The translations under genes were made by a program, and so were the position numbers. DNA of 64,000 bases from Gemmata massiliana (lineage in GTDB: Bacteria; Planctomycetota; Planctomycetia; Gemmatales; Gemmataceae): the NCBI GenBank assembly GCA_000531095.1, contig HG799469.1, positions 254,570 through 318,569 on the forward strand, given 5' to 3'. Each line of letters opens with the position of its first letter. The stretch's first letter is position 1. Below the pieces are notes generated by a model that was given only the letters and a program-made list of their open reading frames with translations, was not told where the DNA came from and made no database searches. Positions 1 to 5,607 of this stretch are shown here, one piece after another.

Positions 1-96
1 GTCGGTGCGGGACACGGGCGCGCAGAGGAGCGTGTACAAGGTGAACGGCCAGAGTCAGAACTCGGCGGGCGTCGGTACCGGCGGCGAGGCCCGCGC
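1..96. other. Short sequence joined artificially to the rest of the window (mate-pair read end)
   Basis: This stretch lies on the far side of the linker at 97-138 and so is probably not contiguous in the genome with what follows. Around 31-85 it resembles the inside of the DUF1559 gene at about 2485-2545: both contain GTGTACAAG, then CAGAG(T/C)CAGAACT, then GGCG..GTCGGT. It may therefore come from another DUF1559 paralogue elsewhere in the genome. The resemblance is short and the reading frame cannot be fixed, so this is a weak assignment. Confidence 0.35.
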
Positions 97-138
97 CGTA
101 ATAACTTCGTATAGCATACATTATACGAAGTTATACGA
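97..138. other. 454 Titanium paired-end linker containing a perfect loxP site (assembly artefact)
   Basis: Bases 101-134 are a perfect 34-bp loxP site: 13-bp arm ATAACTTCGTATA, 8-bp spacer GCATACAT, and the inverted arm. The four bases on each side (CGTA before, ACGA after) complete the 42-bp adaptor used for Cre-lox circularisation in 454 Titanium mate-pair libraries. The linker match is from memory of that published sequence. An untrimmed linker explains both the site and the abrupt change of content across it. It is not expected to be genomic DNA. It happens to be 42 bp, so a reading frame runs straight through it and would produce a false fusion protein. Confidence 0.95.
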
Positions 139-391
139 GTTGGCGGGTTACATCCGCAACCACTGGGGCATCGAGAACGGGTTGCATTGGGTATTGGATG
201 TGGCGTTCCGAGAGGATGATAGCCGCGCCCGAACGGGACACGCGGCCGCGAACTTGGGGATGTTGAGGCGCGTGGCCGTGTCGCTCCTGAAGCGTGCCAA
301 GACCAAGGGCAGCATCAAGACCCGGCGCATGAAAGCCGGGTGGGACGACAACTACCTATTGCAAGTTATCCAAGGAATCACGGCACAATAA
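139..391 (+). CDS. ISAs1-family transposase, C-terminal fragment
   Basis: About 83 residues match the C-terminal end of ISAs1-family (IS4-like DDE) transposases. The sequence opens with IRNHWGIENGLHWVLDVAFR, which carries the catalytic-region Glu, followed by EDDSRARTGHAAANLGMLRR and an end reading KAGWDDNYLLQVIQGI. The N-terminal part and the first two catalytic Asp residues are absent because the sequence starts at the mate-pair linker. An open frame continues upstream through the linker to base 5, but that extension is artificial. Whether the genomic copy is complete cannot be told from this window. Confidence 0.85.
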
Positions 392-405
392 AGTGCGCAC
401 GCCCT
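389..405 (+). repeat. Possible right end (terminal inverted repeat) of the ISAs1-type element
   Basis: Directly after the transposase stop the sequence reads AGTGCGCACGCCCTG. ISAs1-family elements usually end within a few tens of bases of the transposase stop, with an inverted repeat beginning CAGGG on the opposite strand, which this fits. The left end is not in the window, so the repeat pairing and the target duplication cannot be checked. Confidence 0.45.
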
Positions 406-683
406 GGGTCATGTCGTGCCCAGTTGTGGCTATTGATTATCCAGCAATCTTTCCGTCACTTCACGTTCGTGCTTCAGATCACACTCAAAAATCGCATTTC
501 CGACTGGTACGTGAGTGTTTTGTCTAAGTGTAACTATGGTCTCATTTTTGGCGCGAGAATTGCTGTTGTGGCCGGCGCAAAGAATTGTGGTGCGGTCTGC
601 TTCCTCTCCGGCTTCGCCGTGACCGACGGGTTACCGGCGCCAGCCGTCGTTCCCATTTCGTTAGCGGAGTTTAAGGGGGCACT
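406..683. other. Intergenic region upstream of the DUF1549 gene
   Basis: No supported gene. It lies between the IS end and the GTG start at 684 and is more AT-rich than its surroundings around 430-545, so it may carry the promoter for the following gene set. No clear -35/-10 pair or operator could be assigned. Confidence 0.4.
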
Positions 684-2201
684 GTGCGCGTCGCGGTTCT
701 TGTTATTTGTGTGTTGATCGGCTGTGGAACGGCGAGCGCTGCGCCGCCCGATCCGGCCGCGCTCGCGGCACGAATCGACAAACATCTGCAAGCGCGGTGG
801 GACGCCGAGAAGGTGAAGCCCGCGGACCGGGCCGACGACGCCACCTTCGTGCGCCGGGTACATCTCGACCTCGTGGGGCGCATCCCGACCGTTGCGGAAG
901 TTCGTGCGTTCCTCGACGACAAGGACGCGGATAAACGGGCGAAGCTCGTTGCCCGGTTGGTCGATTCCGCCGCGCACGCACGCCACATGGCCACGTTCTG
1001 GCGCCGGCAGTGGGTACCGCAAGCCGACGCCCCACAGTTCGCGAACCTCGCCGACGATTTGGAAAGCTGGATCGCATCAAATCTGCGGTCTGGCGCGTCT
1101 TACGATCGGATCGTGCGTGACCTGCTGACCGCATCGCGTGTCAAAACGGGACCGGGGGCGCCGACCACGTTCCTGACCGCGAGCGAAGCGAAGCCCGAGA
1201 ACCTCGCCGCGAACACGGCCCGCGCGTTTTTGGGGATCAACCTCGATTGCGCCCAGTGTCACGATCACCCGTTCGCGCGCTGGACCCGCGACCAGTTCTG
1301 GCAAACGGCTGCGTTCTTCGTTCGTCCGACCGTACCCGATGGCACGACACCCGCGCGGCTCGAACTTGTGGTCCCCAGTACGAAAAAGCCGATCGGTCCG
1401 CGGCTCCTGAATGACAGCGAACCGAAGTGGCCCGCGGTCCTGAAGGACGATACGGGCCGCGTGGTGCTCGCGGAGTGGGTAACGGCCCGGGATAACCCGT
1501 ATTTCGCCCGGAACGCGGTGAACCGCGTGTGGGCCGAACTCTTCGGTACGGGGATCGTGGAACCGCTCGACGACCTGAGCGGCTCGAACCCGCCCGTACA
1601 TCCAGAATTACTAGATGACCTCGCACGAGCGTTCACGGAGAGCAAGTTCGACTTGAAGTACCTCACCACGGCCCTCGTGCTCACGCGGGCGTACCAGCTC
1701 TCGGCGGTTGTCCCCGCCGGCGGAAGTTCCGACCCGCGGTGGTTCGCGTGCTCCGCGGTGCGCGGGCTGACCGGCGAGCAACTCTATGACAGCCTCCGCG
1801 TCGCGGCGGGGCTGCCCGCGGATCGCGAGGATCTCGATCCGACAATCGCTCCACGCGAACGGAAGCGCTTCGCGGAGAAGTTCCGCGTCGAACGGACCGG
1901 CAGCGCGCAGCGGTCCATTCTGCAATCACTTTCGCTGATGAACGGCAAGTTGACCACCGACTTGACGGACGTCGCGAAGGCCCCCGCCCTGTGCGCGGTC
2001 GCCGGAGCCCCGTTCCTCGACACGAAGGGGAAAGTGGAAGCCCTTTACCTCGCGGTTCTGGGGCGCAAGCCGGCCGACGACGAGTCCGCGCCCTTTGTGA
2101 AGTACGTCGAGAACGGCGGGGCCGACCGCGACGCGAACAAGGCCCTCGCCGACGTTCTCTGGGCGCTACTCAACAGCACCGAGTTCAACACTAACCATTG
2201 A
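684..2201 (+). CDS. DUF1549/DUF1553 domain protein with CxxCH motif
   Basis: This 505-residue protein has an N-terminal signal segment (MRVAVLVICVLIGCGTASA). The Cys in LIGC could be a lipobox. Residues about 25-205 match DUF1549 (planctomycete cytochrome-like, PSCyt2): FVRRVHLDLVGRIPT near 55-69, and CAQCHDHPFARWT at 189-201, where CAQCH is a covalent haem c-type motif. The second half matches DUF1553 (WVTARDNPYFARNAVNRVWAELFG; GLTGEQLYDSLR). Such proteins are abundant in planctomycetes and are usually paired with DUF1501 proteins, as here (6129-7415). Function is unknown; an exported haem-binding role is inferred from the motif. The start is GTG at 684. It is shorter than the 700-1000 residue PSCyt1-containing forms. 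Confidence 0.85.
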   Translation: MRVAVLVICVLIGCGTASAAPPDPAALAARIDKHLQARWDAEKVKPADRADDATFVRRVHLDLVGRIPTVAEVRAFLDDKDADKRAKLVARLVDSAAHARHMATFWRRQWVPQADAPQFANLADDLESWIASNLRSGASYDRIVRDLLTASRVKTGPGAPTTFLTASEAKPENLAANTARAFLGINLDCAQCHDHPFARWTRDQFWQTAAFFVRPTVPDGTTPARLELVVPSTKKPIGPRLLNDSEPKWPAVLKDDTGRVVLAEWVTARDNPYFARNAVNRVWAELFGTGIVEPLDDLSGSNPPVHPELLDDLARAFTESKFDLKYLTTALVLTRAYQLSAVVPAGGSSDPRWFACSAVRGLTGEQLYDSLRVAAGLPADREDLDPTIAPRERKRFAEKFRVERTGSAQRSILQSLSLMNGKLTTDLTDVAKAPALCAVAGAPFLDTKGKVEALYLAVLGRKPADDESAPFVKYVENGGADRDANKALADVLWALLNSTEFNTNH

Positions 2202-2215
2202 AAGGAGCGCGCGAA

Positions 2216-3160
2216 ATGCGCCCCGCCTGCCCACGCCGCCACGCCTTCACCCTCATCGAACTACTGGTGGTGATCGCCATCATCGCCATTTTGATCGGGC
2301 TACTGCTCCCCGCCGTCCAAAAGGTGCGGGCCGCTGCCGCGCGCCTCCAGTGCGCCAACAACCTCAAACAGATCGGGCTCTCGGTTCACAACTACGCATC
2401 GGCCAACGACGACTGCTTCCCCAAGTACATCGGCCTCAACCGGATGGTCAGTTGGACGACGCTGCTGCTCCCGTACCTGGAGCAGGACAACGTGTACAAG
2501 ATGATCGACCAGAGCCAGAACTGGGCGGCGTCGGTCAATGGCTGCCAGAACCGCGCCGCGGGGCAGGTCCGGATGAAGGGCTTCGTCTGTCCGGCGAATC
2601 CGGGCGCGCAGCGCACCGTGCTCGTCTCCGATCCGGAGAACGCCGGTGGGTCGTTCCCCGCGGCGCCGACCGACTACACCGTGGCCGAGGGGTTCTACTA
2701 CACCACCGTCGCCTCGACGAACCCGCCGAACTGGATCGAGGGGACCATCCGGTCGGTCAACGCGATCGGGAAGCGGCGGTTCACCGACGTGACCGACGGC
2801 ATGTCCAACACGCTCGTCATCTTCGAGAACGCGGACGTGCCCAACATCTGGATCAACGGCAAAAGGGTGACGGACAACACGAACACCGTGATGACGTTCA
2901 ATCACAGTAATCACGGCGGGTGGGCGAACCCGAACAACAACAACGTGCGCGGCTGGGACGCGACCGGCACCGTGCAGTTCGGGACGTACATCGTCAACAA
3001 GCGCAACGGGGCCGCGCTCTACGGGTTCCACACCAGCGGTGCGCACGCGCTCCTCGCCGACGGGTCTGTGCAGTTCTTCAGCGAGACCACGACCTCCGAA
3101 ACCATCAAGCGGTTCATCAGTTTCAAGGACGGCGACATCGTTTCCGTGGGCGACCTGTGA
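2216..3160 (+). CDS. DUF1559 protein with type II/IV pilin-like N-terminus
   Basis: About 314 residues. The N-terminus is a prepilin signal: basic leader, then [20 protein letters not shown], where the usual Gly before Phe is Ala. The DUF1559 (SBP_bac_10-type) body follows, with the family's CANNLKQIGLSVHNY and a C-terminal ALLADGSVQFFSE motif. Such proteins are expanded by the dozen in planctomycetes and are thought to be pseudopilin-like secreted or surface proteins of unknown role. ATG 2216 is chosen because AAAGGAG sits 9 bases upstream; an in-frame TTG at 2198 overlaps the previous stop but has no such site. It is followed by a strong hairpin. Confidence 0.9.
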   Translation: MRPACPRRHAFTLIELLVVIAIIAILIGLLLPAVQKVRAAAARLQCANNLKQIGLSVHNYASANDDCFPKYIGLNRMVSWTTLLLPYLEQDNVYKMIDQSQNWAASVNGCQNRAAGQVRMKGFVCPANPGAQRTVLVSDPENAGGSFPAAPTDYTVAEGFYYTTVASTNPPNWIEGTIRSVNAIGKRRFTDVTDGMSNTLVIFENADVPNIWINGKRVTDNTNTVMTFNHSNHGGWANPNNNNVRGWDATGTVQFGTYIVNKRNGAALYGFHTSGAHALLADGSVQFFSETTTSETIKRFISFKDGDIVSVGDL

Positions 3161-3752: not shown

Positions 3753-4673
3753 GTGAAAACGTTCCCGCGCCGCGGAGCGACCGCCATCGAGTTACTCGTG
3801 CTGGGCACGCTCGCCACTTTTGCCATTGGGCTAACGCTGCCCGCGATTCAAAAGGCCCGGGCCGCGAGCGCGCGCACGAAGTGTGCGGACAACCTCCGAC
3901 TGCTCGGGACCGGAGCGCGCGAGTACGCCGCGGCCAACGACGACATGCTGCCGCGCAACAGCGGCCCCACGCCCGCGGGGAGCTGGAACACGCAGATCCT
4001 CCCCTTCATTGGCGAAAAGGAACTGGCCCAGAAGTACACGGACGGGCGCGACTGGTGGGACGCGGGCGAGAACGGCAACCGGACGGTGGCTCAAGGTCGC
4101 GTGGCGGCGTTCGTGTGCCCGGCCGCGCCGAACCCGGACCGCTGGGTTCTGACGCGCGACCCGGACAACGAGTCCAAGAGCTTCCGCGCCGCGCCCACGG
4201 ACTACGTCGGGGCCGCGGGCGCGTACTATGAGAACAACGACCAGAAGAACCTGCACCCCGGCGCGATGCACACGCGCACGGTCACCCGGCGGTTGCGCAC
4301 CTCGGACATCGCGGACGGCACCGCACAGACGGTCCTCGTCGTGGAGATGGCCGACAAGCCGAACCACTGGCACACCGGCAAATTGGGCGAAGACCGGCTG
4401 GAGAAGCCGCAGATGACGGCGCTCTCGGGCCAGTGGGCGGCGCCGAACTGGAACCACCTCCGCTCCCACTCCACTGATGGGAAGACGCAGTTCGGGCCGT
4501 GTGCGGTGAACTGCAGCAATCAGGCCGCGATCTACGGCTTCCACGAGGGCGGCGCGAACGTGCTGTTCGTCGACGGCTCGGTGCGGTTCCTGAAGGCCGG
4601 GATGTCGCAAGAAATGCTGATCGCGCTCGTGAGCATCGCGGGCGGCGAAGTCCTGGCTCCGAACGATTTTTAA
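3753..4673 (+). CDS. DUF1559 protein with divergent pilin-like N-terminus
   Basis: 306 residues. The N-terminus is a degenerate prepilin signal ([20 protein letters not shown]): the Gly before the cleavage point and the Glu at +5 are kept, but the usual FTLIE core is lost. The body keeps family marks: [20 protein letters not shown] at about 44-63 and [15 protein letters not shown] near the end. It is the second of three DUF1559 paralogues in this gene set, which diverge substantially from each other. Start is GTG 3753, 15 bases after the previous stop, with ACGAGG upstream. Role unknown. Confidence 0.88.
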
Positions 4674-4692: not shown

Positions 4693-5607
4693 ATGCGACG
4701 CCGTTCCGCCTTTACGCTGATCGAACTGCTGGTGGTGATCGCGGTCATCGCGATCCTGATCGGCTTGCTGCTTCCTGCGGTGCAAAAAGTGCGCGAGGCC
4801 GCCGCGCGCATGAAGTGCAGTAACAATTTGAAGCAACTCGGGCTGGCGGTTCACAACTACGAGGGCGTTCACCGCGAGGTTCCCACGCTGGGCACGTACC
4901 GACCGCCGACCAGCATGGGCAAGCACGGGTGGGTGATGTTCCTGCTGCCGTACCTGGAGCAGACCGCCCTCGCGAGCCAGTACCGCTGGGACGTCAGTTT
5001 TTCGGACCCGGTCAACCAGCCCGTCATCAAGACTCAACTCCGGATCTTCCAGTGCCCGTCGACCCCGCGGACGACGTGGACGATCTCGGCCTCGGACTCG
5101 GGTGTGGCCTACGAAGCGGCGGTCGGGGACTACGCCGCGTGTAACGGCGTGAGCAAGGATCTGGCGACGTACCTCGGTAACACCAGCATGAGTCGCGGCG
5201 GGATGTTCTTCGGGGAGATCACACCGCGCGGGGTCCGGTTCGCCGAGGTGACCGACGGGCTTTCCCAGACGTTCATGGTTCTGGAGCACGCGGGCATGCC
5301 GGAGTGGTACGTTCTCGGCACGAAGCAGCCGACGAACGCCCCGGTTCCGGAACGTGCTGCCTGGGGGCACCAGTACCAGTTCAGCCTGCTGCTCCGCGGG
5401 CACAGCACGGACGGAAAGAGCTACTACGGGCCGTGCGCGATCAACTGCAGCAACGACCTCGGGATCTACTCGTTCCACACCGGCACGGTCAACACTTTGT
5501 TCGCCGACGGGAGCGTGCAATCGGTCCGCAGCGGGATGCAGGTGAGTGTGATGGCGGCCCTTGCGACCGTTGGTGGTGGCGAGGTGATCTCGCCCAACGA
5601 TTATTGA
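4693..5607 (+). CDS. DUF1559 protein with type II/IV pilin-like N-terminus
   Basis: 304 residues. It has a canonical planctomycete N-terminus ([20 protein letters not shown]) followed by [15 protein letters not shown]. The DUF1559 body ends with [16 protein letters not shown] and the near-terminal pattern [10 protein letters not shown], which parallels [10 protein letters not shown] at the end of the previous paralogue. The two proteins therefore probably arose by local duplication and then diverged. Start ATG 4693 is 20 bases after the previous stop, with GGGG upstream. Likely exported and assembled or anchored through the N-terminal helix; the actual function is unknown. Confidence 0.9.

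Follow-up and report, generated by a model that had tools for sequence, protein, structure and literature searches.

Sequence features at the locus

The window, i.e., the whole stretch of 64,000 bases analyzed here, corresponds to G000:C8:254570-318569 in the assembly of Gemmata massiliana (G000; 22 contigs, 9,269,192 bases). At its left edge lie the remains of an ISAs1-family insertion sequence (IS), within which a 42-base linker sequence is embedded. The following features were distinguished:

1-32, plus strand: fragment of an ISAs1-family transposase gene, in another frame than the open reading frame at 5-391; adjoins a gap of 24 Ns
5-391, plus strand: false chimeric frame of 128 aa, spanning the IS fragment, the orphan DNA, the linker and the 3′ end of the transposase gene
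33-96, no strand assigned: orphan DNA of 64 bp, unrecognisable as IS, with weak matches only
97-138, plus strand: linker, complete and exact (all 42 bases; loxP core at 101-134)
139-391, plus strand: 3′ end of the transposase gene, with the stop codon at 389-391; end of the ISAs1 transposase profile
393-406, plus strand: right terminal inverted repeat, whose partner lies upstream of the window and starts at L040 13558
407-416, no strand assigned: right copy of a 10-bp target-site duplication, the left copy lying upstream of the window, at L040 13548-13557

The segment at 97-138 contains a perfect 34-bp loxP core (101-134), which lies on the minus strand. Allowing up to three mismatches, this was the only loxP match in the 64-kb window, and none was obtained in 100 shuffles. 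No Rfam match was found in the window at gathering scores. The complete 42-mer is what we take to be the 454 Titanium paired-end (loxP) linker. Letter for letter, it is one of two 42-mers in PMC5199103 (the second printed strand); the section of that paper that gives them lists them among mate-pair adapter sequences for removal by screening, and attaches no 454 label to them. The label is supported by PMC3253782, where the text on the Roche 454 long paired-end kit describes it as based on Cre-loxP, the junction being marked by a linker. The preliminary description of this DNA had recognized in these bases a 42-base 454 circularisation adaptor around a perfect loxP site, and the exact identity of the 42-mer and the position of the core bear this out.

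Further into the window, a row of similar frames was observed (2198-3160, 3753-4673 and 4693-5607), two of which have a prepilin-like start. These frames presumably resemble the planctomycete DUF1559 family.

The interrupted ISAs1-family element

Directly before base 1 of the window lies the 24-N scaffold gap (L040 13977-14000, i.e., G000:C8:254546-254569), and the 5′ part of the IS was located on its left, at L040 13558-13976. This part carries an open frame of 115 residues, running from an ATG into the gap, and scores 85.6 bits against the ISAs1 transposase model NF033564 (cut-off 70). An intact copy of the IS on contig C4 (L061) contains a 356-aa frame that reaches 330.5 bits with the same model. 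To the right of the gap, bases 1-32 match a shortened copy of the IS at 97% over 32 bp (G000:C3:632781-632812; L060 982-1013), and bases 4-32 match the intact copy at 83% over 29 bp. Beyond the linker, bases 139-391 fall within a 268-bp match of 100% to G000:C3:632969-633236, and the 3′ end of the transposase gene matches the intact copy at 88% over 265 bp. Apart from the self-match, the 64 bp at 33-96 had a single weak counterpart within G000, at 81% across 43 bp, and another among 18 relatives of the same genus, at 92% across 26 bp. Their score against the intact copy was reached by 79 of 200 shuffles, i.e., it was no better than chance.

Target duplications of the ISAs1 family measure 8-10 bp, and the element at the left edge of the window has the 10-bp repeat GGTCATGTCG on either side. 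In a one-contig relative, G061, the counterparts of its two outer flanks (88% and 94% identity) form a single unbroken stretch, the two alignments sharing exactly the 10-bp target. Since the site is empty in G061 and the target is duplicated, these alignments indicate a real insertion, of which the outer flanks would be correctly joined and only the middle of the element false. The same evidence bears on an alternative in which the 42 bases are likewise a linker contaminant and the whole scaffold join is wrong as well, the DNA upstream of the gap being misplaced. False joins often arise at repeats, and the gap does lie inside a multi-copy IS, but the target duplication and the continuity of both flanks across the empty site in G061 led to the rejection of a wholly false join, which we regard as very unlikely. 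As assembled, the IS comprises 849 bases including the gap, versus 1160 in the intact copy on C4; if the two were of the same length, about 311 bp would be missing.

The earlier statement that the linker and the sequence on its left are not true neighbors is borne out for bases 33-96 and, as to spacing, for bases 1-32. It fails for the scaffold as a whole, given that the 5′ part of an IS of the same kind lies upstream of the gap and that G061 shows no break between the outer flanks, apart from the 10-bp target duplication. The false frame that had been expected to be annotated as a transposase does exist: it opens with a GTG at position 5 and its stop ends at 391, and the 128-aa chimera scores 71.1 bits against NF033564, over residues 42-95 only, which is just above the cut-off of 70. 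As the 5′ part of the IS lies upstream of the gap, the real N-terminus of the transposase would be found there, beyond the gap.

Within this 5′ part, an 18-mer at L040:13874-13891 (G000:C8:254443-254460) was observed that has two mismatches to an end of the linker. It sits in a segment of about 60 bp over which the IS and the C4 copy differ. When 400 kb of control sequence were searched in the same way, with up to three mismatches, three hits were found, two of them in a known linker and one in a probable remnant on stretch L182 (see below). The 18-mer is interpreted as a second, degraded linker remnant.

Linker remnants across the assembly

A search for further copies of the adaptor, as proposed in the preliminary description, revealed at least 58 copies or fragments across the assembly. 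With up to three mismatches, loxP was matched 46 times (24 perfect) and the 42-mer at 23 places (nine exact), while the half-site pattern gave 82 hits. After merging, the remnants consisted of the 46 loxP matches and 12 places with a half-site only, within the 54 stretches covered. The total of 58 is a lower bound. A probable linker remnant of 13 bases, about 50 bp from a gap (L182:18144-18161), was left out of the count.

The genomes of the family were drawn evenly from a larger set. Among the 61 examined, G000 included, no loxP match was found in any of the 60 others, and the exact half-site was absent from the 18 other genomes of the genus (19 examined, again including G000). Within G000, 19 of the 58 remnants lay at most 100 bp from an N gap, versus 42 of 7200 control positions, and 22 lay at most 500 bp from one (versus 122 of 7200).

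These distributions weigh against real bacterial loxP sites, which would have come from a P1-like element or be served by a resident Cre-like recombinase. The perfect loxP sequence in the window would fit such an origin, as would three frames in the genome that are 27-30% identical to P1 Cre. However, a close Cre orthologue was not found in the genome, the best of the three P1 Cre matches having 30% identity and 61.3 bits. Moreover, the match in the window runs through both ends of the 42-mer, whereas 12 of the 14 phage records that match the linker do so at just 33-37 of the 42 letters (37 in the P1 loxP record); the other two, representing one Lactococcus phage, match at 41. The copies also cluster at gaps, a dozen of them are reduced to half-sites, and the sampled relatives have none. 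A natural loxP/Cre system was rejected on account of the flanks, the absence in relatives and the lack of a close Cre, and is considered extremely unlikely. Still less credible is the proposition that the genome contains tens of true, dispersed loxP sites, including one inside a transposase gene, as possible targets for a divergent Cre-like recombinase.

Mate-pair geometry

In 454 paired-end chemistry, sheared fragments are fitted with loxP linkers and circularised by Cre, and a read comprises the end of a fragment, the linker and the start of the fragment. The geometry expected of a circularised library is that the DNA to the left of the linker recurs downstream, and the DNA to its right upstream, on the same strand.

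Some duplication of a flank within 6 kb (at least 25 bp, at least 90%) was detected at 25 of the 58 sites, versus 9 of 200 random positions. Abutting duplications in the predicted order and strand, 1.0-4.5 kb away, were present at 11 of the 58 sites and at none of the 200 random positions, the distance and abutment criteria having been chosen only after the first 6-kb result was known. In four of the 11 the left flank recurred downstream, and in seven the right flank recurred upstream, at distances of 1114 to 3939 bp. Abutting duplications of any other geometry were not found in the 1.0-4.5 kb range. Non-abutting duplications in this range occurred at sites 17, 18, 25, 32 and 47. Site 18 is also among the 11; the direction was as predicted at sites 17 and 32, but not at 25 and 47. 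The 200 random controls yielded two non-abutting entries at these distances.

Two aspects of this analysis count against an untrimmed paired-end linker, namely that 47 of the 58 sites lack the abutting mate geometry, and that the 11 distances have a median of 2095 bp, below the stated library size of 3 kb. Also counting against it are two observations at the window site itself (site 21): neither flank had a duplicate in the surrounding 6 kb, and bases 33-96 have no strong match. The right flank of this site lies inside the multi-copy IS.

Comparison with G061 was informative at another site, L209:6026-6059, where the linker replaces approximately its own length of sequence that is present in the relative (2.1 kb aligned, 93%). 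The site on L226 gave short, weak matches only, such that no comparison with G061 was possible.

An engineered strain, carrying a floxed cassette or a loxP-bearing transposon, would account for loxP as such, a standard site in common use for engineering, but 58 scattered remnants, some of them partial, with mate-pair duplications at 11, leave this a negligible prospect.

Origin of the linker in the assembly

The untrimmed-linker reading is also in keeping with the published sequencing project. In the part of PMC4672568 that deals with it, the genome of Gemmata massiliana IIL30 is described as 22 scaffolds totaling 9,249,437 bp with 64.07% GC, obtained from a 454 Titanium 3-kb paired-end library and a shotgun XL+ library and assembled with Newbler 2.8. 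The GC content of G000 is 64.0% in a 400-kb sample and, judging from the fit of scaffold number, size and GC to that description, the IIL30 project is probably the source of the assembly. The size of G000 exceeds the published figure by 19,755 bp, which counts against this assignment.

The segment at 97-138 almost certainly derives from a 454 Titanium paired-end library, as the internal linker left untrimmed in its reads before assembly. The preliminary description had arrived at the same reading, and it is now joined by at least 58 remnants, none in the sampled relatives, their clustering at gaps, the mate geometry at 11 of the 58, and a 454 project that fits, as far as its description goes. 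In terms of mechanism, the linker would not have been trimmed off the paired-end reads ahead of assembly, and linker-bearing reads would have entered the consensus where other coverage was presumably low, notably at repeat-bounded gaps. The repeat in this case would be the ISAs1-family IS, the middle of one copy having been filled by a linker-bearing chimera beside the 24-N gap. It is thus that untrimmed reads may have caused the lesion at the window site itself.

The missing mate copy in the window, the 47 sites without mate geometry, the short distances and the size difference do not favor a biological loxP, given that the ends of the linker are exact and that the sampled relatives have no copies. 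The segment is an assembly artefact and not a real feature, with no biology at the site.

Occurrence of the linker in other records

In a species-representative collection, the exact 42-mer was present in at least 100 stretches (L067-L166) from nine organisms among the matches listed. These included 35 from the Rickettsia endosymbiont of Diachasma alloeum, 33 from Candidatus Paracaedibacter symbiosus and 20 from Legionella tunisiensis. Kitasatospora cheerisanensis and Litoribacter populi were each represented by three, Clostridium sartagoforme and Agrobacterium genomosp. 13 by two, and a Paenibacillus sp. and Streptococcus macacae by one.

In the record of Lactococcus phage Q33 (JX564242.1; L270:1501-1541), the 3′ end of the annotated portal gene matches the linker at 41 of its 42 letters. 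Because the annotated end of this gene falls inside the linker, the Q33 record is probably contaminated too. The exact linker was also observed in four IMG/VR viral contigs (L275-L278), one of which (L276) equals a contig of Clostridium sartagoforme both in length (25206) and in the position of the match (57-98). A literature search on contamination by this linker found no paper on point.

Implications and comparison with known systems

The findings amount to a data-quality warning of modest weight, resting on the number of remnants in the assembly and on the displacement, at L209, of sequence that the relative possesses. The chimeric frame at 5-391 would pass for a transposase, and similar chimeric proteins are to be expected at other sites. 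Screening for the 42-mer is advisable when loxP sites or odd transposase N-termini are mined.

In comparison with known systems, the element in the window shares with ISAs1-family insertion sequences the transposase profile, the terminal inverted repeats and the 10-bp target duplication; it differs in that only its ends are sound. With the loxP site of phage P1, the 34-bp core is identical. Of the letters beyond the core, three match in the P1 record and the rest of the linker ends are absent from it, and hence the site in the window bears the ends of the linker and not the P1 flanks. With the 454 Titanium linker, in contrast, all 42 bases are the same here, while many of the copies elsewhere in the assembly are truncated or mutated.
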